Assembly (NCBI RefSeq): GCF_017635265.1
Contig: NZ_JAGBLU010000145.1
Span: 1 to 47,718, forward strand
From: Butyrivibrio sp.
Lineage (GTDB): Bacteria; Bacillota; Clostridia; Lachnospirales; Lachnospiraceae
Reading direction: 5' to 3'
DNA: 47,718 nt
Positions 34,701 to 47,718 of this stretch are shown here, one piece after another. How positions within the stretch are numbered: the first letter of the stretch is position 1; each line of letters opens with the position of its first letter. Below the pieces are notes generated by a model. It saw only the letters and a list, made by a program, of their open reading frames with translations, was not told where the DNA came from and searched no databases. A program made the translations under genes and the position numbers.

Positions 34701-35230
34701 AGACATCTTTTGGCTACGGCTGCAAGAACTACAACCGTGATGACCCTGAAAACAGCTGTAAGTTCAATATAGGCCAGATTGCCGGAGTTAAGCTTAAGGA
34801 TGCTCAGGTAAAAGAACTTTTGGGCGCAGGCATAACTTCTAAAATCAGCGGTTTTAAGTCAAAGAGTGGCAAGAAGTTTGAGGCTATGCTCGCTCTTAGC
34901 AAGGATGATGAGGGTAAGGTTACAGGGATCAGATTTGTTTTTGAAAACGAAGATGAGGTTTTGGAAGAATTAAAGTGTCCAATCTGTGGCAAGCCTATCA
35001 TTAAAGGTCACATGGGATATCGCTGCGAGGATTATAAGAAGGGCGATGAAGGCTGCAGCTTCTTTGTCGGTAAGATTGCAGGCAAGGATATAGATAAGGA
35101 GCAGTTTTCCAAACTGATAAACGAAAAGAAAACAGATACAATTTCCGGTTTTATCAGTAAAAAAGGTACACCATTTGATGCAAAACTTGCCTTTGATGAA
35201 AAATTTAATATAGTATTCGATTTTAATTAA
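31733..35230 (+). CDS. type IA DNA topoisomerase (TopB-like) with five zinc-ribbon repeats
   Basis: A 1165-residue topoisomerase related to topoisomerase III. TOPRIM domain: IITEKPSVARDFARVLN (6-22) and WAGDSGKEGQTI (102-113), where D105 and E109 are kept but the middle Asp of DxDxxE is Gly, as in TDAGREGE-type members. The catalytic tyrosine is Y335 in TTYPRTDARVL. From about residue 680 come five units of about 100 residues each, starting VKCPVCGGEL, LKCPACGGRI, VVCPDCGGRI, VVCPMCGGEI and LKCPICGKPI, each with a zinc-ribbon CxxC pair, a GY/FGC...C half-site and a tail IGKIAGK...F(K/I)SK. These are topoisomerase C-terminal repeats for single-strand DNA binding. Its start overlaps the preceding gene; its end overlaps the convergent GGDEF gene by 8 bases. 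Confidence 0.9.
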   Translation: MGKKLIITEKPSVARDFARVLNVSGNNNGYIENDTYVISWCFGHLVEMVYPEEYDEKYKKWKLEDLPFLPVNYKYGVIKASADQYKLVNSLLHREDIDTVYWAGDSGKEGQTIEENIRNYGGVREGMTELRVWIDSMTDEEVRRGIAEARPMSDYELLGKSGIMRAIEDYSLGINFSRALSVKYGKLINDAAATKSYTAIAIGRVMTCVLGMVVRREREIRNFVKTPFYRIVGSFSDANILAEWKAVTGTAFFESPLLYKENGFKKEEDAKKLIDSLSGKSAVIDSIEDGISKKKAPLLYNLTELQADCTKRFKISPSQTLDIAQELYEKKLTTYPRTDARVLTTAVAKEIYKNIKGLSGVEEVSEFSGHVLKNGLYKGIEKSYYTDDSKVTDHYAIIPTGQTAAINSLSALSKNVYLMICKRFLAIFYPPAEYKTAKLQIDVGGEKFFASAKVMTAPGFRAVLGIPEEKKNSGESENSRGESGDSVFDEEDVGISKEEFIKFASTAHKGDPISVNGMNIREGATAPPKRYTSGDLVIAMENAGNLIEDEELREQIKKKGIGTAATRAGIIKKLIDIKYLNQSKSQIITPENLGEMIYEVVYLSVPTLLNPEMTASWEKGLEGIYNGSVDAGDYRVKLEDYIRRETSRMIDKDLTTEIVNHINRFTGKESKGIAARKPIGVKCPVCGGELTTTSFGYGCSNYFDESKKCSFSIGKIAGRDLSEDEVKQLLTEGKTGVLDGFASKKKQKFSASLVMGKDAEGKPSIGFNFEDVPIEYVEDLKCPACGGRIIKTGYGITCENRTKEENPCYFSIGEIAGKKLDTETLKTLVNERKTDVIKGFKSKNKKSFDAKLELKTAEDGKLSIVFDFDGIEPDYLKDVVCPDCGGRIIKKSIGFGCENFKAEDPESCKFFIGKIASKQLSEANVVELLKEGHTSTIRGFKGKINKKFDACLVLKKNEEGKSEISFDFENVEAQVVKDVVCPMCGGEIVKTSFGYGCKNYNRDDPENSCKFNIGQIAGVKLKDAQVKELLGAGITSKISGFKSKSGKKFEAMLALSKDDEGKVTGIRFVFENEDEVLEELKCPICGKPIIKGHMGYRCEDYKKGDEGCSFFVGKIAGKDIDKEQFSKLINEKKTDTISGFISKKGTPFDAKLAFDEKFNIVFDFN

Positions 35231-36698
35231 GCAAAGAGTTCAGAGTGATCCTGCTTAAATCTTTTTTGAAAATTGTGTTAATTCCATACTCCTTTGAAGT
35301 TGCAGCTGAGGATTCCTTAGCTGCAATTGTTGTTATATGGATATGGTTGAATTTATCTCTTCTTTTTATATATTTCAAAAACAGAATATCGTCGGAGTTT
35401 TTTTCATCAAACTCCATTATGATCATCTCTATAGAAGCGAACAGCTGGCACAGATATGGAAGTGCATTTCCGGATTCCATATCGAGGATGTCATAGTCAT
35501 CACCAAAAGTGCTGTTTAGGAGAGGGAGAATTTCCGCATCATTGTGATTTAAGTATAAAAGTATATGCTTTTGCGGCACTTCAAACTTATGAGTACTCCA
35601 CACAGTACTCATATTTTTTCCGCAGAGCTTTGATGTGTAAAGGGCATCATCAGCTACTCTAAATAAAACCTCAAGATCGCTTTCAAGACTGTCGAAAGCT
35701 GCACCTATACTGACAGTAAAATTAGCCGAACCATTAACTGAAAAATCAGTGAGAAACATTTGCAGATTTCTGAGTTTAAATGCAGTAAGGTCCAGACTTT
35801 TTGCATCCGGAATAAAGAGGACAAATTCATCTCCGCCGTATCTTCCAACAATATCTCCGGCATGTATATTCATGGCCAAAAGGTCTCCGATATGTTTTAA
35901 AACCTGATCGCCAACATCATGACCGAGATTATCGTTTACTTTTTTGAAATCATCTACATCAATGACACAAAGGGCATAGTTTTGATGTGAGTGATTATTA
36001 TCCAGCCATTCATGAACTTTTTTATAAAAGGTTCTTTTGTTATGGGTGTGGGTAAGAGAGTCGTAGCTGCTAAGTTCAGAAAGCTTTATCCTGGCAAGTC
36101 CTTCGTTACAACGCATATCGATGATTATTCTGCCCAGCAAAAGTGCAATAAAATATGCGGCAATTGCACGGTATATATCAACTGAAAATACATTTGATGG
36201 CTCAAAAAGCAAGGCCATAAATGCATATATAAGAAGAAAAATAGTTTCGTAGAGGCTTATTTTATAGATTCGATCAATAAAGACAATAGGGAATGATAAC
36301 AGGAAAAAAGGAAACCATAATGAAGCCTTTTTGGGAAAAGCTATTATGTCCATTATGAGGACACAAACAAAAAGAAGAGAATAGAAAGAAAGGCATAGTA
36401 TTTTGGATGAAAGCGTCGATATGGACTTAGTTTTTATAATGGTCAGATTTATAAAAAAGTAGATTATTAAAACAATAGGAGTCAGGACAAAGTATCTGAT
36501 CGAGTTTTTAAATGATGGCAACATAAAAAGTGCAAGAAAGAACATGACAATATAAACAATAGAGATATACATGCAGGTTCTTCTTAGCATGAATAAATTA
36601 TTGTTTACTATATCTTTCTCACAAAGCTTAAAATACTGCTTTATTCTTTTTAGCTGCTCGTTATTTCTTTTGATATGATCAACAAATATATTGCTCAT
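35223..36698 (-). CDS. membrane diguanylate cyclase with C-terminal receiver-like domain
   Basis: A 491-residue protein from the chosen start. A short cytoplasmic helix is followed by six to seven hydrophobic segments (about 42-195), a GGDEF domain (about 205-370) with SYDSLTHTHNKR, CVIDVDDFKKVNDNLGHDVGDQ and VGRYGGDEF (GGDEF 288-292), and a C-terminal domain of about 110 residues that resembles a degenerate response-regulator receiver (ILLYLNHNDAEILPLL, MIIMEFDEKNSDDILFLKYIK, IHITTIAAKES). The I-site is only half kept (HAGD). The active-site loop is intact, so c-di-GMP synthesis is likely. Start uncertain: ATG 36698 lacks a ribosome site, and the in-frame ATG at 36722 also lacks one. Convergent with the topoisomerase gene. 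Confidence 0.88.
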   Translation of the reverse strand: MSNIFVDHIKRNNEQLKRIKQYFKLCEKDIVNNNLFMLRRTCMYISIVYIVMFFLALFMLPSFKNSIRYFVLTPIVLIIYFFINLTIIKTKSISTLSSKILCLSFYSLLFVCVLIMDIIAFPKKASLWFPFFLLSFPIVFIDRIYKISLYETIFLLIYAFMALLFEPSNVFSVDIYRAIAAYFIALLLGRIIIDMRCNEGLARIKLSELSSYDSLTHTHNKRTFYKKVHEWLDNNHSHQNYALCVIDVDDFKKVNDNLGHDVGDQVLKHIGDLLAMNIHAGDIVGRYGGDEFVLFIPDAKSLDLTAFKLRNLQMFLTDFSVNGSANFTVSIGAAFDSLESDLEVLFRVADDALYTSKLCGKNMSTVWSTHKFEVPQKHILLYLNHNDAEILPLLNSTFGDDYDILDMESGNALPYLCQLFASIEMIIMEFDEKNSDDILFLKYIKRRDKFNHIHITTIAAKESSAATSKEYGINTIFKKDLSRITLNSLLN

Positions 36699-36919
36699 GC
36701 CAAAATTATAGCATCTTAGCAAAATGGCATGTATAAAGATTTTGTAAATTGAGTTATGTGAGCTATGTCATCCATATAAAGCAGGATATGAGTGATCGTT
36801 TTAAGGGATGGAAAGAAAAATCCAGTTGAAAATCCAAAACAAAATAAGCAAAAAACAGTAAACCATGCTAAAATATAAGTGTTGTATGTAATGATAATTA
36901 TTCTAGGGGGTTGCATCTT
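36699..36919. other. intergenic region upstream of the GGDEF gene
   Basis: About 220 bases with no supported gene. On the minus strand a TATAAT (36712-36707) ends only 8 bases before the ATG at 36698. On the plus strand AGGGGG (36905-36910) precedes a small reading frame that starts at 36920. Confidence 0.5.
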
Positions 36920-37150
36920 ATGCTGCAAAGAAATACAATCGCTGACAGCACAGCACAGCACAGCACAGCACTAGCCACTCCACTAAACTCAGTCTGCGCT
37001 TATAGCTTGACTTCGTTAAGTGGCTGTCTATGGCTCGCACTAAATTCGGACTGCGCCAAAGGCTTGCCCTCATTAAGTGCTCTGCTCAAGCACAGCATAG
37101 TTGAGTGCGCCCTTATTTCCTATAAATCAGAATATATTCGTGATGGATAA
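36920..37150 (+). CDS. possible 76-residue small protein built on a duplicated segment
   Basis: AGGGGG (36905-36910) lies 9 bases before an ATG opening a frame of 76 codons that ends exactly at a strong terminator (37150-37201). The product is Ser/Leu/Ala-rich with five cysteines and contains two tandem copies of a 19-residue unit, LNSVCAYSLTSLSGCLWLA and LNSDCAKGLPSLSALLKHS. The DNA shows the same 57-bp tandem duplication (about 36985-37098, roughly 70 percent identical) after a (ACAGC)5 microsatellite. It may be a real small peptide, but the repeat may equally be a non-coding element; the evidence is the ribosome site and the neatly placed terminator only. Confidence 0.35.
   Translation: MLQRNTIADSTAQHSTALATPLNSVCAYSLTSLSGCLWLALNSDCAKGLPSLSALLKHSIVECALISYKSEYIRDG
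36945..36971. repeat. (ACAGC)5 microsatellite
   Basis: Five perfect copies of ACAGC followed by AC. The 5-bp unit would shift the reading frame of the surrounding small ORF with each gain or loss, so it could act as a phase-variation tract. Confidence 0.9.
36985..37098. repeat. diverged 57-bp tandem duplication
   Basis: Two head-to-tail units beginning CACTAAACTCAGTCTGCGC and CACTAAATTCGGACTGCGC; both continue with GCTTG, a run ending TTAAGTG and a closing GCTC-like end. Coordinates are approximate to a few bases. Confidence 0.7.
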
Positions 37151-37201
37151 CCGTCGGATTTGACGGGGTTACTATACCCTGTCAGGTTCGGCGGTCTTTT
37201 T
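37150..37201 (+). terminator. strong rho-independent terminator
   Basis: A 19-base arm starting ACCGTCGGATTTGACGGGG (37150-37168) pairs with CCCTGTCAGGTTCGGCGGT (37177-37195), mostly Watson-Crick with a few G-U pairs, followed by CTTTTT. It separates the small ORF from the secreted protein gene. Confidence 0.85.
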
Positions 37202-37235
37202 CATATAAAAATTATTTTCTAGGAGGGAATTTGTA

Positions 37236-38087
37236 ATGAAACAAAAAAGAAAATCAGGAAGGAAACTGCTGGGCTTTTTGCTCACGCTGGCGATGGTCGT
37301 CGGGCTGATGCCGGGGATGGGATTGACGGTGTATGCAGATGGTACAACATATAATCCGGCTTCAGAGTATCACGACTATGAAAATTTGATTTCAACCGAT
37401 ACCGAGGTGACCATTAGTGAGGTGTCCGGGCAAACCTGGTATGTAATTGCTTACGATAGTTCTAGTTCAACGGTCACACTGCTTCCAAAATCAGGTTTTG
37501 GGACTTACGCATTTAACAGCGAAAGGTTAGGAGGTAATGTTTATGCAAACTCCGAAATCAAGACATATGTGGATGGATTGACTGGAGAGGGGCAGCCGCT
37601 CGCAGAAATCAGCAGTGTGATATCCGATTTAACCCTGATTGATACATCAACTGCACAAGAATTGTCTGCGACTAAGAGAAAAGGAGCAGGCTCTTCCTGG
37701 TGGCTGTGCTCGCAGGGGAGCAGCACTTACAGTTATGACGCTGCGGCGTACGTGGACAGGTGGAACAACTGGAATGTCAATTTGTATGGCCTCGTTGTGA
37801 CCAACAAGAGTGGTGTTCGCCCCGCTTTAAAGCTTGATCTGTCAAAGGTGATGTTTGATTCTGCTACCAATACCTTCTCGGTGGAATCGGCGACAAAAAC
37901 TCCCGCGACCGTTAAAACGCCTCCGACAGCCAAGGCCCTGACCTACACCGGCTCAGCGCAGGAACTTGTGAATGCCGGTAAAGCAGAAGGCGGCGAGATG
38001 CAGTACGCAATCGGTAAAGATGCAACTACTGCACCTGTAGATGGATATAAAGCATCCATACCTACCGCTACCAACGCCGGAACCTAA
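37236..38087 (+). pseudogene. secreted surface protein, apparently truncated (DUF6273-like)
   Basis: An open frame of 283 codons. The N-terminus is a signal peptide (basic KQKRKSGRK, hydrophobic LLGFLLTLAMVVGLMPG, cleavage near VYADG). Next comes a domain of about 180 residues with TWYVIAYDS, TLLPKSGFGTYAF, SSWWLCSQGS and SGVRPALKLDLSKV, resembling the DUF6273 module of clostridial surface proteins. It is followed by the first part of an MBG-like repeat (PPTAKALTYTGSAQELVNAG, then NAGT) that in homologues continues with YYVWYKV-like strands but here meets TAA right after NAGT. No cell-wall anchor follows. AGGAGGG precedes the ATG. I read this as a gene cut off by recombination or mutation; a short secreted version is possible. 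Confidence 0.65.
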
Positions 38088-38275
38088 ATCACAACACGCT
38101 ACGGCGCAAAGATGATTTTTTCATTTTCGTTTTTTCAAAAAAGGTACTAATAAATCAAGAAAACGGGAGAAAAGGGGTAAATAATGTAGAGGTGTTTGCA
38201 ACGAGCAGAGTTGAAACATTGATTACAACTAAGAAATCGTGCTAAGAGGCAAAAACACATGGATTTTTGATGGAG

Positions 38276-38300
38276 AGACCGAAATCGGTCTTATTTTTTT
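38276..38300 (+). terminator. rho-independent terminator without an obvious gene
   Basis: AGACCG (38276-38281), loop AAAT, CGGTCT (38286-38291), then TATTTTTTT. It could end the truncated surface-protein transcript. Confidence 0.7.
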
Positions 38301-38430
38301 GCTTTCTTTCCTTGGGTAGGGTATTAATACCTAATTCCTACCAAGATAACTACCCAGGTAGCAAAATGCCCACCAGACGGATGAGACTGGTGGACAATTG
38401 CGTTGCATAGATTTTTTCAGTGAGATCCTC

Positions 38431-38478
38431 GTGAGGGACATCATGAGGGACTCCGTGAGGGACATTGTGAGGGACAGT
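38431..38478. repeat. four-copy 12-bp tandem repeat
   Basis: Units GTGAGGGACATC, ATGAGGGACTCC, GTGAGGGACATT and GTGAGGGACAGT, preceded by a degenerate copy (GTGAGATCCTC, 38420-38430). The consensus is RTGAGGGACNNN. A 12-bp period preserves reading frame: the plus strand reads RDIM RDSV RDIV RDSI, the minus strand SLTx repeats, but no start/ribosome site supports either frame. Confidence 0.85.
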
Positions 38479-38596
38479 ATCCATAACTCATTAATTTCTG
38501 TGCTGGTTTCCGTGGGTTGCACAGTAATTTGGAAGGTTGATGTAAGGTTTCTATTGGTTCAATACCTGGATTAGTCCCCTATCATTACCTTGGGTA

Positions 38597-40027
38597 TCAA
38601 TTCGGGTGAGTGATCCATCTTCCGGATCTTGGGGAACCTTCTCTTTCCAACCTTTTTTCATCTTTTAGCATATCAATAGTTCGGGTAAGCTGCCGTCTGG
38701 TCAGATTAAGCTGATCTTGGATTTCATCGAGCTTGATGCTGGGATTATTTTGTATGAGGGCAAATACCATCTCTTTGCGTTCTGTCCAGTCCACTCCGAT
38801 TTGATTATTACCTGGATCATTACCCTGATTGTTACCTTCTTTATTACCTTGGTAATAATTTAGGTTCTTCAGCGTCAGGAAAAACGAACCATGTTCCGAC
38901 CGAAAAGCAGGAGCAAGCTCTTCTGTATAGTTATGCTGGAATTGGTAGTCTTCGATGATCTTCTTGAAGCCGCTGCCGCGCCTCTCCATATAGATCAGGC
39001 GTGTGAACACATCGGCGATGATGGGATTCCGGCGCTGCGAGGGAACGGTCATGATATCCCGGTCCTGTATATTTATCCCGTCAAACATCCCGCCGGGAGA
39101 GTAGATTTCGAGTCGATCATCAAAAATATCGATGTGAACTTCACTGCCAAAAACGAGGTAATCCCGATGTATTAGGGCGTTTACGATACCTTCGGTCACA
39201 GAACGCTCCGGGTAGTCGGGAAGCTCGACACGCCGATCCGGTTCCTTGAACCAGCCTTTATGGGAATTACGCTTCACAAATGCTTCTCCTTCCTGAAGGA
39301 GCGTGATCAGGCTTCCTGTGTATTCCGCATCATCGAGGGCGTCCTGAAGACCGGATGCCTTCGTCAGTCCATTCCATCTTGTGCAGAAGAGACGGGACTG
39401 GTAAATAGGGCAGTTGTCTGCAAGCAGCGCACCGGCATTTGTAAGGTTGCCATTGACATCCCGGATGCCGAATGACTCGTAATCAGTGTCCTGAAAATCT
39501 TTATGTGCCCTCTGGTAATAGGTGGAGATGAGCTTGGTAAAAGCCATCTTGGAGAACTCATATCCTGATGGAAGGCTGTCAAAGCTGCGCCCGGAGCCTT
39601 TAAGAGTGAGTTCTCTCAGCTTGGCTGAATTGCAGATGACGCTTTCGTTCCCAACGCGATGATAGGCAGTTCTCTCACTCTTTCCTGCATAGAAATACGG
39701 CGTTTCGGAGCCGGGATAAACCTCAACGATGATCAGCTTCTTTCCGTCAACGGTAGCAAAACGGAGATTAAACGGCGGGATGGGATCCATCTTGTCTCGT
39801 AGCACACGGCTGATCTTTTCAGAATCGCCCTCAGCATCGTCAAGTCCCACCACCTCATTGGTCTTATCGACGATACCGAAGATAAGCGAGCCGCCAATGC
39901 CGTTGGCAAAGGCACTGATGCTCTTGCACCAGCTTCGCGGATCTTTTTCTTCCAACATTTCTTTTTTATCATATTCGGTGGCCTCACCGATGAGATTCTT
40001 TATTTCATCTTCCTGTATGATGTACAT
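38597..40027 (-). CDS. Schlafen AlbA_2 / HATPase_c_4 / winged-helix protein
   Basis: A 476-residue protein, last gene of the five-gene minus-strand operon. Residues 10-125 form an AlbA_2 (Schlafen core) domain: EATEYDKKEML, SAFANGIGGSLIFGIVD. The middle part has the HATPase_c_4-type block TEGIVNALIHRDYLVFGSEV and IFDDRLEIYSPGGMFDGIN. A low-complexity linker (NKEGNNQGNDPGNNQIG) joins it to a C-terminal winged helix (FALIQNNPSIKLDEIQDQLNLTRRQLTRTIDML). Such proteins are usually called ATP-binding proteins or transcriptional regulators; eukaryotic Schlafens of the same core cleave tRNA, but nuclease activity in this bacterial group is not established. AGGTG lies 9 bases before the ATG at 40027. 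The gap to the AAA_13 gene is 60 bases. Confidence 0.85.
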   Translation of the reverse strand: MYIIQEDEIKNLIGEATEYDKKEMLEEKDPRSWCKSISAFANGIGGSLIFGIVDKTNEVVGLDDAEGDSEKISRVLRDKMDPIPPFNLRFATVDGKKLIIVEVYPGSETPYFYAGKSERTAYHRVGNESVICNSAKLRELTLKGSGRSFDSLPSGYEFSKMAFTKLISTYYQRAHKDFQDTDYESFGIRDVNGNLTNAGALLADNCPIYQSRLFCTRWNGLTKASGLQDALDDAEYTGSLITLLQEGEAFVKRNSHKGWFKEPDRRVELPDYPERSVTEGIVNALIHRDYLVFGSEVHIDIFDDRLEIYSPGGMFDGINIQDRDIMTVPSQRRNPIIADVFTRLIYMERRGSGFKKIIEDYQFQHNYTEELAPAFRSEHGSFFLTLKNLNYYQGNKEGNNQGNDPGNNQIGVDWTERKEMVFALIQNNPSIKLDEIQDQLNLTRRQLTRTIDMLKDEKRLEREGSPRSGRWITHPN

Positions 40028-40087
40028 GGACTGTCACCTGCTTTCTTTCATTATGTAGTATCGGCAGTAAGCCGTGGAATATACATA

Positions 40088-42436
40088 TCATGATTTATTC
40101 CAGTTAACGCTTTCCATCATCATATCAAAATGCTGTTGTTGATCCATTGCCCGGAAGATACGCTCAAAAATATCACGGTAGCGTTCCAGATCGCTCTCGT
40201 CCTCAATGAAGTGCTCCTCGGCAATGACGGATGGAGGTGTTGTTATTTTGGAGATAAATGCTTCGGCAAGGTTATATTCTGATGTGTCAAGCGTCCCATC
40301 GGAAAGGCGGTTGAAGAACTTGTCCTCCCGCTCTTTCAAAATGGTATTTATGAGCTTTTCGCCATCATAGCCACAGAGCTGAACAAAGTAATACTCCAGT
40401 ATCTGATGCATGACGTTGATAAGCGCGGAGGGGCTTCTAAGTTCCCTGTATTCACTCCAAAGGGTGAAATAACTGTTCTTGACCGGGTTATAGTTTTCAT
40501 GCTGACCGGCACTGCATGGTCTGACACAGCGCTTACATTCTGAACGGCTATTTTCCTTCCGAACAAGGAAAAATGAGGTAGTGTCATAATAATCAGCTAC
40601 GGAGCGACCTGCGGTGATGTCTCTATGAAAGTGTACATTATGTGTAAGTATAAAAATCTGGTCGATCTGAGCATCCCCATACTTGTCGTCCACAAGGGTG
40701 CCACGCATCCTGCAACGCTCGGCAAGCTGCTTCACAAGGGAGCCTATGATGAATAGGGCACTGTCATCCATGCTGGAGACAGGGTCATCGATCACGACGA
40801 CCTTGGGCTTTTTCTTTTTGTTGTCATCATCGTCTTTGAAACCAAGAACATCATAGTAGAAATACAGGAAGGCGATAAAGCTGCGCTCGCCTTCGCTCAG
40901 CTTGTCGGCAACTTCATAAGGCTTACCGTCCTTCATCCGCATAACGGCGTATACATTTTCCTTTCCATCCTCCGGACGGAGCTCGAAGCCCTGGAAATTA
41001 GAGTGCCGCAAGAGGTCGTTGATCTTGGACATTGCTTCCTCAGTAGGGACACCTTCCGAGTTGGCTTCCTCAAGTTCCTTCTGGAGTTTGACCAGTTCTT
41101 CTTTTTGAGCTTTAAGCTGAGCGGAGAGAGCCGTTCGCTGTGTCTCCGTGTCCTTCAGTTCTTTGCGGTATTTCTTGTTATCATCCTCAAGCAAGAATGC
41201 CACATACTCCCATACTTTCTTTTTCAGTTCTACTTCTTTGTCGCCGCGTTCTTTGAAGAGTTTGTTATTATCTTCAATCTTTGTATTCAGATCCTTCACA
41301 GTCCGTTCTATCGATTCAATTGCAGAGCGGATGTCCGGAAGCGTATACTTGCCGGAGGGATTAGCAATTTTCTCACGGATGGTATTCAGGCATTCCTGCG
41401 TTACGGTGCCGAGGGTTTCAATCTGCGCATTAAGAGCAGATGTAGAAACGGCAGAGAATGGATTCTTTGCCAGCTCCCGGAGAGAAAGATAGAGCGAGGA
41501 CAGAGTCTGCTTGAAGGAATCCAGGTATGCATTCAGACTTGCCATATTCCTGGCGTAGTCTTCGTTAAAGAGGTCTGCAATATCCTGCTTGAATTCTTTT
41601 GGAAGTCCCTGTTTACAGAAAGGGCATAATCCGTCCTTGTTTTCTTCGTGATACGCATAATGCTCAACGCCTGTCTGCACCCAGGTCATGGCATCCAGCT
41701 TCTTGATAAACAGGGCATATGGTCTGTTGCTGCTGCTGGTGATTTCTGTGCCCATTAGCTTCGCTCCTGGCAGGTTTTCAAATGAGTATGCATTTGAAGG
41801 AAAAGACAGCGTGGGATATTTCTGGAGGTCTGAAGCGAAGAGGGCATTATATTCCTCGGTTAGAGCCTTGGGATCATGCTCAACGGGAGTGGTGCTTGCA
41901 CACTTTGCACTCGCCTCACGAAAGAAGGGTTCCTTTCCGTTCAGGCATCCAGCCATTGATTTCTTGAAGGTTTTTCTGCAATAATCGGTCAGTTTCCAAA
42001 ATGGATCCCAGTATTTCTTTGCAATATCATCATCGGATAACAGCTTGCCAATGGCTTCCTGTGAATCCGTTATTTCTTTTCTATTATCCGCTATTTTGCC
42101 CTTGATGGCGTCCTGTTTTTTGATCGCCTGGTCATTGGCCTTATGGAATATCAGGCGTCCGGTCAGCCCTGTATAATCAGTGAAATTTTCATCGATGTAA
42201 TCCTGATCGTAAACCTTTACATCGAAAGAATCATGTGTTTTAAGATCTTCCCAAACAACGCCGTCATCTGCCTCGATGGCTTTTGCTATCGTGGATTTTC
42301 CTGCACCATTCCTGCCAAAGAAATAGTTGACGAGAGTGGGAGTAATAGGTTTTGTATTACCCTCGAAGGATTTCTTTGTGGGCATTATTGTTTTGATGGC
42401 GGCGGTCTTTTTGCCTAAAATCTCATCATCTTGCAT
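40088..42436 (-). CDS. AAA_13 family ATPase with zinc-hook motif (RloC/PrrC superfamily)
   Basis: A 782-residue SMC/ABC-like ATPase. Walker A GRNGAGKST (41-49), a first coiled region (about 95-135), a zinc-hook-like CPFCKQG (271-277), a second coiled coil (about 370-460, very Lys/Glu/Gln-rich), ABC signature LSEGE (513-517), Walker B VVVIDDPVSSMD (546-557) and the H-loop LTHN (597-600). After it, NSYFTLWSEYRELRS and NVMHQILEYYF match the AAA_13 C-terminal block. RloC and PrrC of this superfamily are anticodon nucleases that respond to DNA damage or phage; I could not identify an anticodon-nuclease triad with confidence here. Other AAA_13 proteins drive different effectors. The ribosome site (AGGAGCT) precedes the ATG at 42436. 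Fourth gene of the operon. Confidence 0.88.
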   Translation of the reverse strand: MQDDEILGKKTAAIKTIMPTKKSFEGNTKPITPTLVNYFFGRNGAGKSTIAKAIEADDGVVWEDLKTHDSFDVKVYDQDYIDENFTDYTGLTGRLIFHKANDQAIKKQDAIKGKIADNRKEITDSQEAIGKLLSDDDIAKKYWDPFWKLTDYCRKTFKKSMAGCLNGKEPFFREASAKCASTTPVEHDPKALTEEYNALFASDLQKYPTLSFPSNAYSFENLPGAKLMGTEITSSSNRPYALFIKKLDAMTWVQTGVEHYAYHEENKDGLCPFCKQGLPKEFKQDIADLFNEDYARNMASLNAYLDSFKQTLSSLYLSLRELAKNPFSAVSTSALNAQIETLGTVTQECLNTIREKIANPSGKYTLPDIRSAIESIERTVKDLNTKIEDNNKLFKERGDKEVELKKKVWEYVAFLLEDDNKKYRKELKDTETQRTALSAQLKAQKEELVKLQKELEEANSEGVPTEEAMSKINDLLRHSNFQGFELRPEDGKENVYAVMRMKDGKPYEVADKLSEGERSFIAFLYFYYDVLGFKDDDDNKKKKPKVVVIDDPVSSMDDSALFIIGSLVKQLAERCRMRGTLVDDKYGDAQIDQIFILTHNVHFHRDITAGRSVADYYDTTSFFLVRKENSRSECKRCVRPCSAGQHENYNPVKNSYFTLWSEYRELRSPSALINVMHQILEYYFVQLCGYDGEKLINTILKEREDKFFNRLSDGTLDTSEYNLAEAFISKITTPPSVIAEEHFIEDESDLERYRDIFERIFRAMDQQQHFDMMMESVNWNKS

Positions 42437-42464
42437 AATAGCTCCTTTCCAGCGTCCAGGCTTA

Positions 42465-42656
42465 TCAGAGTTTTCCTTCGAGTACTAGCTTATCGATTTC
42501 AGAAAGCCTGAATTTGTATCTCTTCCCGACCTTGTTTGCGGGGAGCTTCCCCGAGCGCACCCAGGTACGAACGGTATCCGGTGTGACACTTAAATGCTCT
42601 GCCACATCTTCGATATTCACCCATTTTTCGTTATCAAGTTCTTGTTCCTTGCCCAT
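42465..42656 (-). CDS. excisionase-type helix-turn-helix protein
   Basis: A 63-residue protein consisting of one MerR/Xis-type HTH_17 domain: WVNIEDVAEHLSVTPDTVRT, then WVRSGKLPANKVGKRYKFRL and a final helix EIDKLVLEG. Proteins like this bind DNA as small regulators or excisionases, and are also found as the first or inner gene of restriction and defence operons. Here it is the third gene, 15 bases after the 223-codon gene and 28 bases before the ATPase gene, so it is more likely an operon regulator or a recognition subunit than a phage excisionase; this is inferred. AAGGAGAAGG precedes the ATG. Confidence 0.9.
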   Translation of the reverse strand: MGKEQELDNEKWVNIEDVAEHLSVTPDTVRTWVRSGKLPANKVGKRYKFRLSEIDKLVLEGKL

Positions 42657-42671
42657 AGTATTCCTTCTCCT

Positions 42672-43343
42672 TCAGTTTTTGGGGTTTGAAAGCTTCACGT
42701 GACGGCTTAGCGTGGTGATCAGGTCGGCATTCTTTACGGACCAGTGTATCTCGGTAAATTCGCTGGTGCGTGGCTTGGTAACGATATGGAGATCTTCCAC
42801 AAGTGATTCGATCAGCGACTGGTCTATGGAGTCAGACATCTTAAATCCGAAATAAATGATTCCATGCTGTACATCGATATCAGTTAAATGTCCATAATGA
42901 AATTTCTGTGTTGGGTCGATCTCACCATTATATCTGCGTGTTTTGTTCGCCACAATGGTAGGGAACTTCATGATCTCGGCTATTTCCCTTTTCGTGAGTG
43001 GTTTAAGCCACTTGGCTATCGGCCTCTCCGTGGCATATTCTTCGCATAGGCAGCATTCAGGAATCATCTGAAAATGGCGTGACCGCAGTTTTTCGCCCTC
43101 AATGACGAAAAGGTTGAAATAATCATGGCTGATATCGATGGGGAAGGGGACATTTGATTCCTCATCGACAATCACATTTCCTTCCACCTTGCCAATGGAA
43201 ACATGCTCCGGCTTGCATTTGGTCACCATGTTCATAAGTTCAGCATAGGCCGCCGGTGACAGCTCGTTTTGGAGATTTTCCGTTTCCATGTTTGCACGAT
43301 GCAAGGAGGGTGGGGTATTTGGTTGTGGTAACAAATCATTCAT
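42672..43343 (-). CDS. 223-residue protein of unknown function in the AAA_13 operon
   Basis: I do not recognise this family. The N-terminus is polar and Pro/Asn-rich (to about 30); the main part is mixed alpha/beta with SIGKVEGNVIVDEESNVPFP and a short Cys-rich segment PECCLCEEY (about 113), then a helix pair LKPLTKREIAEIMKFPTI, and a C-terminal region rich in beta strands (HGIIYFGFKMSD) ending in a helix. No catalytic motif is evident; CCLC with nearby His/Cys could be a metal site. AAGGAG lies about 10 bases before the ATG at 43343; the frame opens further upstream at 43439, inside the previous gene. It follows the 307-codon gene by 14 bases, so the two are co-expressed. Confidence 0.78.
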   Translation of the reverse strand: MNDLLPQPNTPPSLHRANMETENLQNELSPAAYAELMNMVTKCKPEHVSIGKVEGNVIVDEESNVPFPIDISHDYFNLFVIEGEKLRSRHFQMIPECCLCEEYATERPIAKWLKPLTKREIAEIMKFPTIVANKTRRYNGEIDPTQKFHYGHLTDIDVQHGIIYFGFKMSDSIDQSLIESLVEDLHIVTKPRTSEFTEIHWSVKNADLITTLSRHVKLSNPKN

Positions 43344-43357
43344 ATGGTCACTTCTCC

Positions 43358-44281
43358 TTACAGATGCAGGTCGCCAAGAACTGATCCGACAATGACACCG
43401 TTGTTGATATAGTTGATGGTTGATCCGCTCTTTGTGCAATCGCCATCCTCTTGGAAACTGTCCCTGCCTGATTCACTATTCGGTTCGATCACATCGCCTT
43501 CCACGACAGGGATATCATATGCCGCAGGGTCATGTATATCATCCCCATATGCTTCTGAGAGTTTAGCCTCAACTCCTGGAAAGGATGGGCGGTTCACGAT
43601 AAGATCGGTACGGAAGCCATTTGCAAAGGATGGATTGTAATCACCTGTGTCGTTTGGGTTTTCCTTATCGAGATAGATCAGCTTAAGTGTATCCTGCCCG
43701 TGCTTATTATCCGGTCTGTTCTGCAGGATATAGTTCCACACACCCAGAAGGAAAGGCTGTATATCTATGGCTTTTGCCTGTACGAGGTCTTTCTTTTTAA
43801 TAGGGGTACAGTTTTTACCACATAGCAACTCATCATCACGCCCTATGTCATCATCCTTCTTTATCACATACAGGATTTTTCTGACGGCGAGGTCAAGCGG
43901 GTATATCCCGTCACCCCGTTTTTTCATTGCAAAGTATTTCTTAAGAATTATTGACATCAGGTAGAGGGCGCGGTCTGTGTCCTGGGTGATCTTTTCACGA
44001 AGGCTCTCCTTGTATTCATACTTGCGAAATGGCATGGACATGCCGTAGTCGCTCCTGCAATTCTTGTATTTTGATACGCTGTCGCCAAAATCGCTCTGTT
44101 TATCGAAATTCGCAAATCCTTTTCCGGGTAGCTCCACCAGATCTTTCATGATGTACTCGTCGCGGACATCGCCCTTGATGCCCTTATATCCCTTCGTGGG
44201 GGAAACGCGTTCACGGCTCGCTTCTACAAGCAGGGTAAAGAACACACCGCCACAAAGATAAGGCGCAGTCTGATCAGCCAT
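43358..44281 (-). CDS. 307-residue protein of unknown function, first gene of the AAA_13 operon
   Basis: I cannot name the family. The protein begins MADQTAPYLCGGVFFTLLVE; a YLCGG-FFTLL start of this sort recurs in uncharacterised Firmicute proteins (from memory). The body is mainly helical with charged loops (LREKITQDTDRALYLMSIIL, then KKYFAMKKRGDG), an NPSFANG-like turn near the middle, and an acidic linker (VVEGDVIEPNSESGRDSFQE). It ends in a short Asn/Gly beta motif, TINYINNGVIVGSVLGDLHL, reminiscent of the NxxNxG...GD tails seen in several bacterial conflict-system proteins. No catalytic motif is clear. GGAGG is placed 7-8 bases before the ATG at 44281, and a promoter lies about 200 bases upstream. 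Confidence 0.8.
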   Translation of the reverse strand: MADQTAPYLCGGVFFTLLVEASRERVSPTKGYKGIKGDVRDEYIMKDLVELPGKGFANFDKQSDFGDSVSKYKNCRSDYGMSMPFRKYEYKESLREKITQDTDRALYLMSIILKKYFAMKKRGDGIYPLDLAVRKILYVIKKDDDIGRDDELLCGKNCTPIKKKDLVQAKAIDIQPFLLGVWNYILQNRPDNKHGQDTLKLIYLDKENPNDTGDYNPSFANGFRTDLIVNRPSFPGVEAKLSEAYGDDIHDPAAYDIPVVEGDVIEPNSESGRDSFQEDGDCTKSGSTINYINNGVIVGSVLGDLHL

Positions 44282-44318
44282 AAGATAACCTCCAGATTTA
44301 TTTCAAAACACCGGCAGA

Positions 44319-44375
44319 CTGAGCGACCCCTAATATTTCTCTGAGCGACTGAAATCAACTCCTAAACTGTCGCTT
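44319..44375. repeat. GAGCGAC direct and inverted repeats in the operon leader
   Basis: CTGAGCGAC occurs at 44319-44327 and again at 44341-44349 (22-bp period), and the inverse GTCGCTT lies at 44369-44375. They lie within the untranslated leader of the minus-strand operon and could be regulator-binding iterons or a remnant of an insertion-sequence end. Confidence 0.65.
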
Positions 44376-44482
44376 GCGGAAATTGACCGTATCAGTGCGC
44401 TACTCCAGAATTTTAAGTGAAAGGAGGAACCCAGACCGCCTGTCAGTATTCAAGTAAAAAACCACATAAACACATATAAACC

Positions 44483-44511
44483 ATTATATCATGACAAGCG
44501 ATTTTCAACAA
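44483..44511 (-). promoter_or_regulatory. extended -10 promoter of the AAA_13 operon
   Basis: On the minus strand TTGTTG (44511-44506), a 17-base spacer and TATAAT (44488-44483), with TG one base before the -10 hexamer. The leader to the ATG at 44281 would be about 195 nt. Confidence 0.7.
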
Positions 44512-44565
44512 CATAAATAAGCAATAAATTTCCCGCTTTGCGGAAGTACTCGAGTTTACGCAGGG

Positions 44566-44706
44566 CGGTGGACATTAAAAGGAAAAAAGAAACAAGGGAT
44601 ACCTATATCCTTTTTCCAAAATTCCGAAGTCCACCGTTTACTTGTCGTGCTTGGGTATATTTCCAAAGCAACCGGTCGGTGAATCTTTGGAAACACCGGC
44701 CTTTTT
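44566..44706 (+). promoter_or_regulatory. structured leader with terminator/antiterminator arrangement
   Basis: Terminator: GGTCGGTG (44674-44681) with CACCGGCC (44694-44701), then TTTTT. Competing stem: TTTCCAAAG (44660-44668) with CTTTGGAAA (44685-44693), whose right arm is the terminator loop, so the two stems exclude each other. Upstream, CGGTGGAC (44566-44573) can pair with GTCCACCG at 44629-44636 or with a second copy just after the terminator (about 44710-44717). This is the layout of a transcription attenuator for the sigma-like gene at 44751. Confidence 0.6.
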
Positions 44707-44750
44707 CGTGTCCACCGCTCTGCTGGAAAAGCAGAAAGGAGGACGCGAAA

Positions 44751-45470
44751 ATGCGATTCCACAAAACACCAAGCATCAGTAAGGCAAAGAAGGCAGAGCT
44801 TCAGGAGAAGATGAAGCAGGAAAAGGATCCCCAAAAGAGGGCAGAACTGCGGCTTCAAGATCCAAGGGCTGTGTACAAGCAGATCGACGAGGATGGTCAT
44901 GTTATAGCCACGTTCGATCCGTTGAAGGATACCACCTTGAATATCACGCTCGTGGAAAAGGAGGCGCTCACGGACGCTATGCACAGAATAGATGACGCTG
45001 AGGCGAGACAAAACTGCAAGGACATCCAGCTTGACGATTTCGACAAGGCGCTTCGGGAAAAGGAGCGAGAGGATTTCATAAGGAAATACAGGGAGGAGTA
45101 TGGATGTGATCCGCATCCTGCTGACCTGCCAAGCCGCCACTGTACCTATATCTATTACCAGGCGACCACGGAGAACGAAGACGAGGGGGAGAACGAGATC
45201 GGGGACTCTTCCAATATAGAATTGGAGCTTTCCGTCAATCCCTTCGAAGATGAGCCCGAGACCGCCACAGAATGCATGAGGAGGCTTGTGCAGGGCTTTA
45301 CCAAGAGGGAGCAGGAGGTTTATGAGATCGTTTTCCGAAGGGGAAAGACAAATGTGTATGCCAGCGGAAAGCTTGAAATCTCGGAGCAGAGGGTAGGTCA
45401 GATCGTAAAAGACATTATGAGGAAGCTCGCCGCGAATGAGGAATTGAGAAAACATTTCCGGGGCCTTTAG
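44751..45470 (+). CDS. sigma-70-like regulator of the phage/ICE module
   Basis: A 239-residue protein. The N-terminal half is highly charged and helical (KTPSISKAKKAELQEKMKQE, then LREKEREDFIRKYREEYGCD), the middle acidic (TENEDEGENEIGDSSNIELE), and the C-terminus a sigma region-4-type helix-turn-helix: LVQGFTKREQEVYEIVFRRG, then SGKLEISEQRVGQIVKDIMR. Such short sigma-like proteins are common early genes in Firmicute prophages and conjugative elements. The ATG at 44751 follows AAAGGAGG; the frame extends upstream to 44538 across the leader and is not expected to be used. A 321-codon open frame on the opposite strand is its shadow. GC and codon use are higher than in the chromosome part of the window. 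Confidence 0.8.
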   Translation: MRFHKTPSISKAKKAELQEKMKQEKDPQKRAELRLQDPRAVYKQIDEDGHVIATFDPLKDTTLNITLVEKEALTDAMHRIDDAEARQNCKDIQLDDFDKALREKEREDFIRKYREEYGCDPHPADLPSRHCTYIYYQATTENEDEGENEIGDSSNIELELSVNPFEDEPETATECMRRLVQGFTKREQEVYEIVFRRGKTNVYASGKLEISEQRVGQIVKDIMRKLAANEELRKHFRGL

Positions 45471-45504
45471 ATTCCGCTTCCGGGCGCGGCCTTTAGAAGT
45501 GTAA
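45465..45504 (+). repeat. 40-bp intergenic element, copy 1
   Basis: CTTTAGATTCCG, nine variable bases, then GCGGCCTTTAGAAGTGTAA. The stop codon of the sigma-like gene lies within the first block. A second copy with the same 9-base spacing is at 47507-47546; only one position differs in the 31 conserved bases. Confidence 0.85.
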
Positions 45505-45538
45505 AGGCAAACAGCACCCATGAAAGGAGGAATCGGAA

Positions 45539-45739
45539 ATGGGATTGAAACACAGAGTAAAGATCAACGTGACCGACGAAACAGCAGCTAAAAAGAGGGT
45601 TCTGGAGGGAGCCGACAAAAGGCTCCCCAGGAGGCTCCTTCGTTTCCTGTTCGGGGATTTCACGACAGTGTATTTACTGTCTCCCGGACAGAGTGTCGAG
45701 TCGGTTGAGATCCACGAGGTTAAGCCTGACGGCGTATAG
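45539..45739 (+). CDS. 66-residue basic protein of unknown function
   Basis: A small basic protein (MGLKHRVKINVTDETAAKKR at the N-terminus; RLPRRLLRFLFGDFTTVYLL in the middle) with a beta-rich end (VESVEIHEVKPDG). The Arg-rich central segment may contact nucleic acid. AAAGGAGG lies upstream at a good distance. It stands between the sigma-like and the Gp157-like gene in the same orientation and resembles the anonymous small proteins of ICE and prophage early regions; I do not recognise it. Confidence 0.75.
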   Translation: MGLKHRVKINVTDETAAKKRVLEGADKRLPRRLLRFLFGDFTTVYLLSPGQSVESVEIHEVKPDGV

Positions 45740-45762
45740 GCCGCAGCGGAAGGGAGGAAGGG

Positions 45763-46278
45763 ATGAAGCTATACGAGGTAAATGCCGCCATACAGTCTGC
45801 GCTCGACAGACTGGACTTCGATCCGGAGACCGGAGAGATCGGCGAGAACACGGAGGCGGTGCTTGAGGAACTGGATGCGCTGGAAATGGAGAGGGATCGG
45901 ATCCTTGAATATATCGCTATGGTCGCTCTCAACATCAGATCCGATGCGGCGGCACTGAAAGCGGAGGAGGAAAGGCTCTCCAAGAGGCGCAAGGCTTTGG
46001 AGCGAAAGGAAGAGAAAATCATTTCCATCTTAGACCGTGAGTGCGGCGGTGAGAAGAAGGATCTGGGATTTGCCACGGTTTCCTATCGGAAGTCTGACAG
46101 CCTTGAGGTCATTGATTCTGCCAAGGCGTGTGCATGGCTCCATGATAACGGGCATAACGACTGTGTTCGCATAAAGCCGCCGGAGGTCATTAAGGACGAG
46201 GTCAAGAAGCTGGTTAAAAATGATGCAAAGATACCCGGCGTAAAGCTGGTTATCAAGAACAACTGCTCGCTTAAGTAA
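45763..46278 (+). CDS. siphovirus Gp157-like protein
   Basis: A 171-residue protein with the Gp157 layout: MKLYEVNAAIQSALDRLDFD, the block DPETGEIGENTEAVLEELDAL, a central coiled coil (KAEEERLSKRRKALERKEEK) and the C-terminal beta part (LGFATVSYRKSDSLEVID, then KAKIP-like KNDAKIPGVKLVIKNN). Gp157 is an early protein of Streptococcus phage Sfi family and is common in prophages and ICEs next to a Sak4-type ATPase; it is thought to take part in phage DNA metabolism. GGGAGG lies upstream. It forms a run with the 66-codon gene and the ATPase gene after it. Confidence 0.9.
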   Translation: MKLYEVNAAIQSALDRLDFDPETGEIGENTEAVLEELDALEMERDRILEYIAMVALNIRSDAAALKAEEERLSKRRKALERKEEKIISILDRECGGEKKDLGFATVSYRKSDSLEVIDSAKACAWLHDNGHNDCVRIKPPEVIKDEVKKLVKNDAKIPGVKLVIKNNCSLK

Positions 46279-46293
46279 AGGAGGTACAGAGCA

Positions 46294-47238
46294 ATGTTAA
46301 ACATATCACAGGGCAAGGTAAAGCGTCCACTGCGTGTCGTGGTGGATGGGGTCGAGGGCGTAGGGAAGAGCACCTTTGCTGCACAGTTTCCTGATCCGCT
46401 TTTTATCGACCTTGAGAACGGCACGGATTCCATGAATGTAAAGAGGACGCAGAAACCGGAAACATGGGAAGAACTGTTACAGCTGGTACGGGATGTGGCG
46501 GCTGATCCGAGTGTCTGTAGGACGCTCATCGTAGATACCGGGGACTGGGCAGAGGCGTTATGCGTGAAGTACATCTGCCGCAAGTATAAGACCGACGGGC
46601 TGGAAAGTTTTGGATATGGCAAGGGCTATGTGTATCTGCGGGAGGAATTCGAGAACCTCCTGCACGAGTTGGATAAGGTGATCGCCGCAGGGGTGAATGT
46701 GGTGATATGCGCACACGCACAGATCAAGAAGTTCGAGCTTCCGGATGAGGCGGGCAGCTTTGACAGATACGAGCTGAAGATGTCAAAGAACGTGTCACCG
46801 CTCGTCCGTGAGTGGTGCGACATCCAGCTGTTCGCAAATTTCAAGACTTATGTCGTGTCCACGGAGAATAAGCACCATAAGGGCACGGGCGGAACCAGGA
46901 GGGTTATGTATGCTTCACATACTGCATCCTGGGATGCGAAGAACAGGCACGGTCTGCCGGATGAGATGGAGCTTGATTTTAAGCGTATCGCTCATCTTTT
47001 CGGCGGCGTTGCACCGGTGCAACAGGAGATATCCCCGTTGGAGAAACTTAGGGAGCTTATGGAGGAGTCGGGCGTGACCGAGGCGGAGCTTAGGAAGGTG
47101 GTCTCGGACAAGGACAAGTATCCCGCCGATACACCGGTTTCCGAATATGACGGTAGGTTCATCACGAACTGGGTCATTAAGTACTGGAATCAGATACTGC
47201 CCATTGTTGAGGCGAACAGGAAAGGAGCGGGCGTGTGA
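46294..47238 (+). CDS. AAA_24 / Sak4-like RecA-fold ATPase of phage type
   Basis: A 314-residue nucleotide-binding protein. Walker A VDGVEGVGKSTFAAQFPDP (about 17-35) and a Walker B-like strand TLIVDTGDW, followed by GYGKGYVYLREEFENLL, VVICAHAQIKKFELPD and the strand KTYVVSTENKHH, as in AAA_24 phage ATPases (Sak4 type), which resemble RecA cores and assist single-strand annealing during phage or ICE recombination. The C-terminal 80 residues (SPLEKLRELMEESGVTEAEL, then AADTP-like YPADTPVSEYD) are an extra helical domain, as in related proteins of ICEs. AAAGGAGG precedes the ATG. The next gene overlaps its stop. Confidence 0.88.
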   Translation: MLNISQGKVKRPLRVVVDGVEGVGKSTFAAQFPDPLFIDLENGTDSMNVKRTQKPETWEELLQLVRDVAADPSVCRTLIVDTGDWAEALCVKYICRKYKTDGLESFGYGKGYVYLREEFENLLHELDKVIAAGVNVVICAHAQIKKFELPDEAGSFDRYELKMSKNVSPLVREWCDIQLFANFKTYVVSTENKHHKGTGGTRRVMYASHTASWDAKNRHGLPDEMELDFKRIAHLFGGVAPVQQEISPLEKLRELMEESGVTEAELRKVVSDKDKYPADTPVSEYDGRFITNWVIKYWNQILPIVEANRKGAGV

Positions 47239-47438
47239 TGGAAACAGCGATCATTACATTTTTATGCTCTGCAGGAATGATAGGAATCGGAGTGTTGGCG
47301 GTTTATATCATTTCGGAGATCCATGACGCGAGAAAGAAGGAAAAACAGAAGCGCCAGGAGACCTTCGATGCCATGAACAGGAGTCTTGACCGGATCATCC
47401 GCGACATGGAGGAGATACAGAAGAGCCTGAAAAGGTAG
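47238..47438 (+). CDS. 66-residue single-span membrane protein
   Basis: A small protein with an N-terminal hydrophobic segment (ITFLCSAGMIGIGVLAVYII) followed by a highly charged helix (HDARKKEKQKRQETFDAMNR, then SLDRIIRDMEEIQKSLK) likely to form a coiled coil. The ATG at 47238 shares a base with the preceding stop (TGATG), and AAAGGAG lies at 47221; a GTG at 47235 is an alternative. Small membrane proteins of this type are common in ICE and prophage early operons; the function is unknown. Confidence 0.75.
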   Translation: METAIITFLCSAGMIGIGVLAVYIISEIHDARKKEKQKRQETFDAMNRSLDRIIRDMEEIQKSLKR

Positions 47439-47718
47439 GAAGTCACGGGGCTTTTGCTCCTCAGAAAAGGCCGCAGGAAATCTTTTTCAAATTTACGGGT
47501 GTCACTCTTTAGATTCCGAAAAAACCTGCGGCCTTTAGAACTGTAACAGTAAAACAGGCCGTAAGGCCTGAGCATATCAAAGTCCAGCTAAGAAATGTCA
47601 AGGAGTAAATTGAAAATGTTAGAAATTAGCCATTACCTGCATTTTGGGTAACCTTAATAAAGCTAATTCATTTATAGCACATTGAAAATGACAAATTAGA
47701 TATCAGGCAGCTTTTGTA
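47439..47718. other. structured non-coding end of the window
   Basis: No gene of useful length. AAAGGCCGCAGG (about 47466-47477) pairs with CCTGCGGCCTTT (47525-47536) across a long loop, and a GNRA-type hairpin CAGGCC-GTAA-GGCCTG lies at 47555-47570. AAGGAG near 47600 precedes a frame of only 11 codons. The next gene of the module must lie beyond the right edge. Confidence 0.6.
47507..47546 (+). repeat. 40-bp intergenic element, copy 2
   Basis: CTTTAGATTCCG, nine variable bases, then GCGGCCTTTAGAACTGTAA, as in copy 1 at 45465-45504. In this copy the second block is also the right arm of the CCTGCGGCCTTT stem. Confidence 0.85.

Follow-up and report, generated by a model that had tools for sequence, protein, structure and literature searches.

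A phage-carried gene cassette with an RloC-like ATPase and motif-matched partner proteins as a candidate conflict module in Butyrivibrio

Do five tightly packed genes in a Butyrivibrio draft genome make up one conflict or defence system, and which of them belong to it? The question is raised by a minus-strand operon in a 47,718-nucleotide stretch of this 4.15-Mb draft genome (the window), which a preliminary description had put forward as a candidate undescribed five-gene conflict or defence system. Gene end coordinates bear out its layout: five co-directional genes, here termed A, B, H, C, and D, are separated by intergenic gaps of 14, 15, 28, and 60 bases. The relevant features are as follows.

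44483..44491, minus strand: extended -10 TGATATAAT (TG-A-TATAAT), exact, read by eye; possible operon promoter
43358..44281, minus strand: gene A, 307 aa; core helical, C-terminal tail (250-307) disordered; no family matched
43361..43417, minus strand: tail motif of A, residues 289-307; putative partner of the B head motif, assigned to the L175/L172 subtype
42672..43343, minus strand: gene B, 223 aa; no family matched; N-terminal motif and a conserved core whose HW lies close to the C-terminus
43167..43208, minus strand: head motif of B, residues 46-59; weak match to the A tail of the window
42465..42656, minus strand: gene H, 63 aa; HTH_17 (E 1e-13)
40088..42436, minus strand: gene C, 782 aa; AAA_13 (E 5e-102), ABC ATPase of PDC-S06, RloC-like
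41615..41626, minus strand: zinc-hook CPFC of C, C271-C274; motif conserved among relatives
40394..40408, minus strand: residues 677-681 of C (H677, E681); column of the PrrC R-x3-E
40130..40132, minus strand: H769 of C; His in 91 of 93 relatives, a gap in the other 2
38597..40027, minus strand: gene D; SLFN_AlbA_2 and HATPase_c_4, with weak winged-helix matches at its end

The start of B at 43343 is the second start of a longer frame. Profile matches confirm the HTH_17, AAA_13, and AlbA_2/HATPase identities first read from the sequence of H, C, and D. H is likely a DNA-binding regulator of the operon; its identification as MAD1 of MADS was rejected at a score of 52.3 against an NCBI cut-off of 80. 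The single extended -10 promoter proposed for the operon can be read as an exact motif about 200 bases ahead of A; a good -35 is absent, and the site is missing from the promoter-scan list. The scan returned no excess of promoter-like sites (11 versus 10.3 ± 3.3 in shuffles). Comparison of the window with its closest relative, L001, shows purifying selection on each of the five genes (dN/dS of 0.12 for A, 0.15 for B, 0.05 for H, 0.11 for C, and 0.03 for D).

A and B had been called unrecognised, which holds at the level of protein families and, for A, of a structure search. A has no match in Pfam, PADLOC, or NCBIfam at E 1, and no Pfam family appeared among 72 members scanned. B has no match in Pfam or PADLOC and a single one in NCBIfam, far under the cut-off; its members matched three Pfam families, one member each. 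An ABC-3C identity for A or B was rejected because the Pfam matches were lacking (A, 0 of 72 members; B, no ABC-3C family among its matches). The AlphaFold model of A combines an ordered core with a disordered tail, and Foldseek with this model found no relative, solved structures included. Housekeeping matches of either protein, which the preliminary description had named as evidence against its proposal, were not found.

C matches the PADLOC profile PDLC04890 of PDC-S06, an unpublished candidate system (PMC11811056), at E 3.3e-171. It keeps Walker A, the CPxC hook, the LSEGE signature, Walker B IDDPVSSMD, and the THN loop, with hook residues C271/C274 showing at least 95% conservation across 93 full-length relatives. 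A relative in prophage Javan105 is annotated RloC, and the C-terminal part of C aligns with two PrrC proteins found in this analysis (hhalign probability 94.5, E 8e-8), such that the PrrC R-x3-E falls on residues 677-681 while the PrrC His is not aligned. Arg, Glu, and His occupy positions 677, 681, and 769 in 71 of 93 C relatives; the window has His, Glu, and His. The RloC triad is defined as Arg-x3-Glu-x36-52-His, and Ala at any one of its residues abolishes activity (PMC2610378). This catalytic pattern is absent from the window, where the Glu-to-His spacing in C is 87. Nuclease activity of the window's C is doubtful because of the His at the catalytic-type Arg column.

What recurs elsewhere is a smaller gene set. 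A profile-type search yielded 71 genome and 40 viral loci for A and 69 viral loci for C, all annotated with profiles built in this analysis; the 69 viral C loci include near copies. At 66 of the 69 the order is kept with B upstream of C, whether or not H intervenes, and relatives usually carry B directly ahead of H or C. Both A and B are present at 58 of the 69 (A is in pieces in L144 and L169), and at the remaining 8 viral C loci with B another domain, E, occupies the A position. B is missing at three loci: L127, where a DUF2130 gene takes its place, and L179 and L185, with a shortened C. Median gaps between longest frames are -8 (A-B), 15.5 (B-H), and 18 bases (H-C). Outside L001, identity to the window is 17-29% for A and 14-28% for B, and C reaches 29-37% in matches spanning most of the protein. 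The order is thus kept at 14-37% protein identity and is not confined to close relatives, the outcome that had been named as telling against a system. By record titles, relatives of A occur in Lachnospiraceae, other Clostridia, Enterococcus, Pilibacter, Selenomonas, some Prevotella and Bacteroidales bins, and a single Desulfobulbaceae bin; others come from prophages of Streptococcus, from gut phages, and from a plasmid of Lactococcus. Among genomes the cassette is uncommon. A was found in 5 of 299 genomes of the family, the window's own included, and PDC-S06 at 1e-30 in 12 of 299 genomes of the phylum; among the 14 listed PDC-S06 genome loci (about 1.5 kb of flank), A, B, and H are present only at the window's.

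Variants of the set occur as well. A-B-H without C is found at L036, L041, L042, L049, and L118. The strong C relatives of L190-L192 are preceded by a gene of L127's DUF2130 family. Such genes (about 440 aa) lie directly ahead of close C relatives at L127:6677-8002, L190:162-1487, L191:165-1487, and L192:3773-5098. Judged by position, the DUF2130 gene replaces A, B, and H, giving this ATPase another gene set. The window's genome also encodes, at G000:C140:43225-45186 (L202), a second, distant PDC-S06-like ATPase (E 1e-31), and A, B, and H were not found within its 1.5-kb flank. Homologues of D, among 187 compared sequences, occur besides the window only in L001/L123, which are one contig. Because B and A keep their order at C loci and D is limited to L001/L123, the core of the system is, by gene order, A-B-(H)-C, and D is local cargo of this lineage. 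The five-gene reading is therefore not sustained, and a role of the Schlafen-type protein D as actor or regulator finds no support. The system is undescribed only in part: its ATPase is known as PDC-S06 and is RloC-like, while the set A-B-H-C is unnamed in the sources searched. No description of A-B-H-C was recognised in the available parts of the literature; work on lactococcal plasmid defence or the original BASS literature might contain one.

A and B also resemble each other at their facing ends. The C-terminus of A and the N-terminus of B each carry a short beta motif in which Gly, Asn, and beta-branched residues are abundant and which is alike within a locus. Local alignment scores were computed for 99 adjacent pairs chosen by length and adjacency, 7 of them E-B, and in non-redundant sets of 70, 39, and 21 pairs the own pairs were compared with 2000 shuffled pairings. 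Own pairs scored 58.2 versus 32.3 ± 1.2 in the set of 70 (own partner first in 17), 58.8 versus 32.1 ± 1.7 in the set of 39 (z 16; first in 16), and 57.8 versus 30.2 ± 2.3 in the 21 divergent pairs (first in 13); in no set was the observed mean reached by any of the 2000 shuffles. The result was unchanged after removal of the E pairs (20 pairs, 57.6 versus 30.3). The head end was not located in 22 of the 99 pairs and was set at residue 90; with these uncertain heads dropped, 17 pairs scored 56.9 versus 30.8 (0 of 2000 shuffles). Control alignments of the A linker or the A middle with the B head stayed at chance level (reached by 210-1832 of 2000 shuffles). The tail against the B core was slightly raised (22.4, 22.6, and 23.8 versus 21.4; reached by 59, 63, and 14 of 2000), an excess of 1-2.4 points compared with 26-28 for tail and head. 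Across 85 high-scoring pairs, identical residues share the same codon at 513 of 1114 positions, with 504 expected from codon usage; thus, the likeness is held at the protein level and does not reflect a fresh DNA copy. The tail of A and the head of B therefore appear, from this covariation, to recognise each other in many relatives. A motif at the C-terminus of one protein and the N-terminus of its neighbour, the BASS-type feature, is present at the family level. For the window itself, the tail-head score is 24, under the mismatched mean, and 253 of 2000 residue shuffles score as high. Its A tail finds its best B head in L175 (41), with L172 third, and its B head finds its best A tail in L175 (38), with L172 second. 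Since L175 is the best match of both, we take the window motif to be a diverged member of the L175/L172 subtype.

The motif travels with other domains as well. Domain E (about 130 aa) holds the A position at L126, L142, L147, L161, L165, L171, L174, and L181; it is unrelated to A by profile comparison (hhalign probability 0.2), has no Pfam match above cut-off in four members scanned, and carries a tail of the A-tail kind. In the 7 E pairs the own B head ranks 0, 1, 2, 9, 11, 20, and 28 of 98, which amounts to a clear match for three pairs, a fair one for two, and a weak one for two. L038, L039, and L040 each have A and then a separate gene for an NLR-type NACHT protein, whose head can be aligned with the A tail at scores of 46-51. 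These A tails score about 30 on average against B heads, with a best head from another locus at 54-63; the NACHT heads are thus above the mean yet are not the best match of their own A tails. Pfam identifies NACHT and SNaCT14 in L039, the other A/NACHT loci being linked to it by phmmer, and the A/NACHT locus L037 is cut by a contig end. A third small protein follows A and NACHT at L040:13689-14210, and its start repeats, by eye, the motif NYGDVKNQTIININKVNGNIVGG. A is fused to NACHT-SNaCT14 in ten loci and to B in L063, and eight further long A proteins end differently. These 19 long proteins have low motif scores (median 29, range 26-37) compared with 99 split tails (median 48, range 27-67; control median 24), with overlap at the low end of the split-tail range. 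In the two-B-gene loci L155, L159, L172, and L175, the motif is seen by eye on all three proteins.

The genes around the cassette differ between its two sides. Genes were scanned at 44 of 55 non-redundant C loci that have at least 1.5 kb of downstream sequence; the scan covered 83 of 114 listed downstream genes and, upstream, 75 of 106 usable genes, the closest one or two at each locus. At 1e-15, 232 PADLOC profiles matched the 83 genes, taken from the first two after C, versus 12, in one gene each, for the 75 upstream genes; since many PADLOC profiles overlap, these figures do not count genes. The top downstream profiles are type I methylase (8-9 of 83 genes) and specificity subunits (6-7). 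Pfam matches in the same 83 genes include N6_Mtase (10), HsdM_N (9), Methylase_S (6), DNA_methylase (5), ResIII (5), McrBC (3), and Eco57I (3), as well as single restriction enzymes. A one-family methylase, by number and size the HsdM set, is among the downstream genes of 9 of the 44 loci; many of the 44 have no restriction gene among the first two downstream genes, and none was found next to the window cassette. A-B-H, A-NACHT, and A-B-H-C share one SNF2-type helicase/DUF4391/type III methylase set as their downstream neighbour, as if the three front modules were interchangeable guards. The loci with this set include L036, L039, L032, L083, and L085. Because one set follows all three modules, B(-C) and NACHT are suggested to fill the same place.

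The phage-type neighbourhood noted earlier for the operon proved real. Window positions 38079-47587 are collinear at 84% with the 48.5-kb IMG/VR viral contig 3300010998_000034, and the neighbour gene at 46294-47238 matches 200 phage records, annotated among those listed as AAA ATPase, Sak4-like ssDNA-annealing protein, or hypothetical. Base composition shifts at about 37 kb from at most 44% to 42-53% G+C. Given the collinearity and this shift, the operon is most likely carried by a prophage. A secreted-type protein with a signal-like start (by eye) is encoded at 37236-38087 and ends beside the phage stretch. Close to its end, the viral contig (L123) has parts of 37106-37297 again, so the element border is probably in this region. 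Outside the phage stretch, the minus-strand gene at 35223-36722 shows a GGDEF motif by eye, and its product is probably a diguanylate cyclase.

The PDC-S06 match, carriage by phages and prophages, and the 232 versus 12 PADLOC profiles after and before the cassette support the conflict or defence role proposed at the outset. The suggestion that the unrecognised pair recognises or carries the effector is possible and is sharpened by the tail-head motif. We see A-B-H-C as a mobile, phage-carried, restriction-linked abortive-infection module in which A and B signal through tail and head, a reading whose chances we judge about evenly balanced. The module would serve as a back-up, often placed ahead of restriction-modification genes. 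H would control expression, and C, an ABC ATPase that combines a zinc hook with an RloC/PrrC-like C-terminal domain, would form the sensing side together with B, whose N-terminal motif is predicted from the family covariation to pair with the C-terminal motif of A. Upon a trigger, C and B may expose or assemble their motifs, which would template the disordered tail of A as in HET-S/NWD2 and BASS pairs; the templated tails would cluster the helical domain of A, which might then act on the cell, and the C nuclease could contribute alongside wherever its triad is complete. A is cast as an exchangeable executor because it forms the N-terminal part of NACHT fusions and is replaced by the unrelated E, and it could equally plausibly be a sensor. 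The amyloid nature of the motif, the direction of signalling, and phage defence itself are what we infer.

Any specific pairing fits the same covariation, and most of the data would be explained as well if the A tail simply docked onto the B head one-to-one, adding a beta strand or arch and forming neither polymer nor template, and the A-B complex silenced C as a tRNA nuclease. C is indeed RloC-like with its hook and has R/E/H triad columns in most relatives (71/93), and a restriction partner keeps PrrC silent (PMC2610378). We nevertheless consider docking rather unlikely, as same-kind tails serve NACHT partners and domain E, three motif-bearing proteins at L155, L172, and L175 (by eye) are what a self-assembling motif would give, and A-B-H exists at five loci without C.

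The restriction linkage could also mean that A-B(-C) serves the linked restriction-modification genes, as an accessory for control or anti-restriction, and is no killing module. Many cassettes precede restriction genes, and one methylase set lies behind three front modules; the window and many of the 44 loci, in their first two genes, have no such neighbours, and NACHT and RloC-like parts are immune sensors or effectors elsewhere, all of which makes a mere accessory distinctly improbable. More improbable still is that C alone is the defence system (PDC-S06/RloC) with A and B as unrelated passengers: the PDC-S06 match and C relatives lacking A and B speak for it, but B precedes C in order at nearly all viral C loci, and the A-B covariation is strong. 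The abortive-infection module with tail-head signalling remains our preferred reading.

The cassette matters in several ways. Two nameless protein families are now characterised through their partners, and the uncharacterised candidate PDC-S06 is linked with a set of genes that recurs. The cassette would offer an easily tested case of immune signalling by matched motifs, with no NLR involved and in non-multicellular hosts, and the split, swapped, and fused natural versions make the motif's role directly testable. More tentatively, and with rather less confidence than in the module itself, we envisage amyloid-type templated signalling outside NLR pathways in single-celled Bacillota, where B and an SMC/RloC-type ABC ATPase of the phage-carried cassette would replace the NLR, locus-specific pairs would insulate copies from each other, and A and E would be swappable executors. 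If true, this would answer the question, posed in PMC7889193, of whether signalling amyloids occur in NLR-independent pathways.

Compared with known systems, C shares with RloC and PrrC the ABC ATPase motifs, the CXXC, and the R-x3-E column as aligned to PrrC, and relatives of the cassette share with PrrC the linkage to restriction genes. The window's C differs by H at the Arg column and by a Glu-His distance of about 87 instead of 36-52, and the available part of PMC2610378 mentions no A, B, or H partners for RloC. C matches the PDC-S06 profile at 3e-171, whereas A, B, and H match none of the PDC-S06 profiles. In NACHT proteins with SNaCT14, A either makes up the N-terminal domain or is encoded separately by the gene immediately upstream; the window cassette has no such protein, and B and C stand in that place. 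In bacterial amyloid pairs, adjacent genes encode an effector with the motif at its C-terminus and an NLR with the motif at its N-terminus, mainly in filamentous actinobacteria and cyanobacteria (PMC7889193). At the family level, A-B shares with BASS (BELL effector plus NLR) the adjacency, the motif placement, and the within-locus matching, and the A tail is disordered in its model. The second protein of A-B-H-C is no NLR, B being family-less and C an AAA_13 protein; the hosts of the cassette are mostly Bacillota and their phages, unlike those given for amyloid pairs in PMC7889193. The A/NACHT loci follow the BASS plan, and in A-B-H-C it is B that stands in the NLR position.
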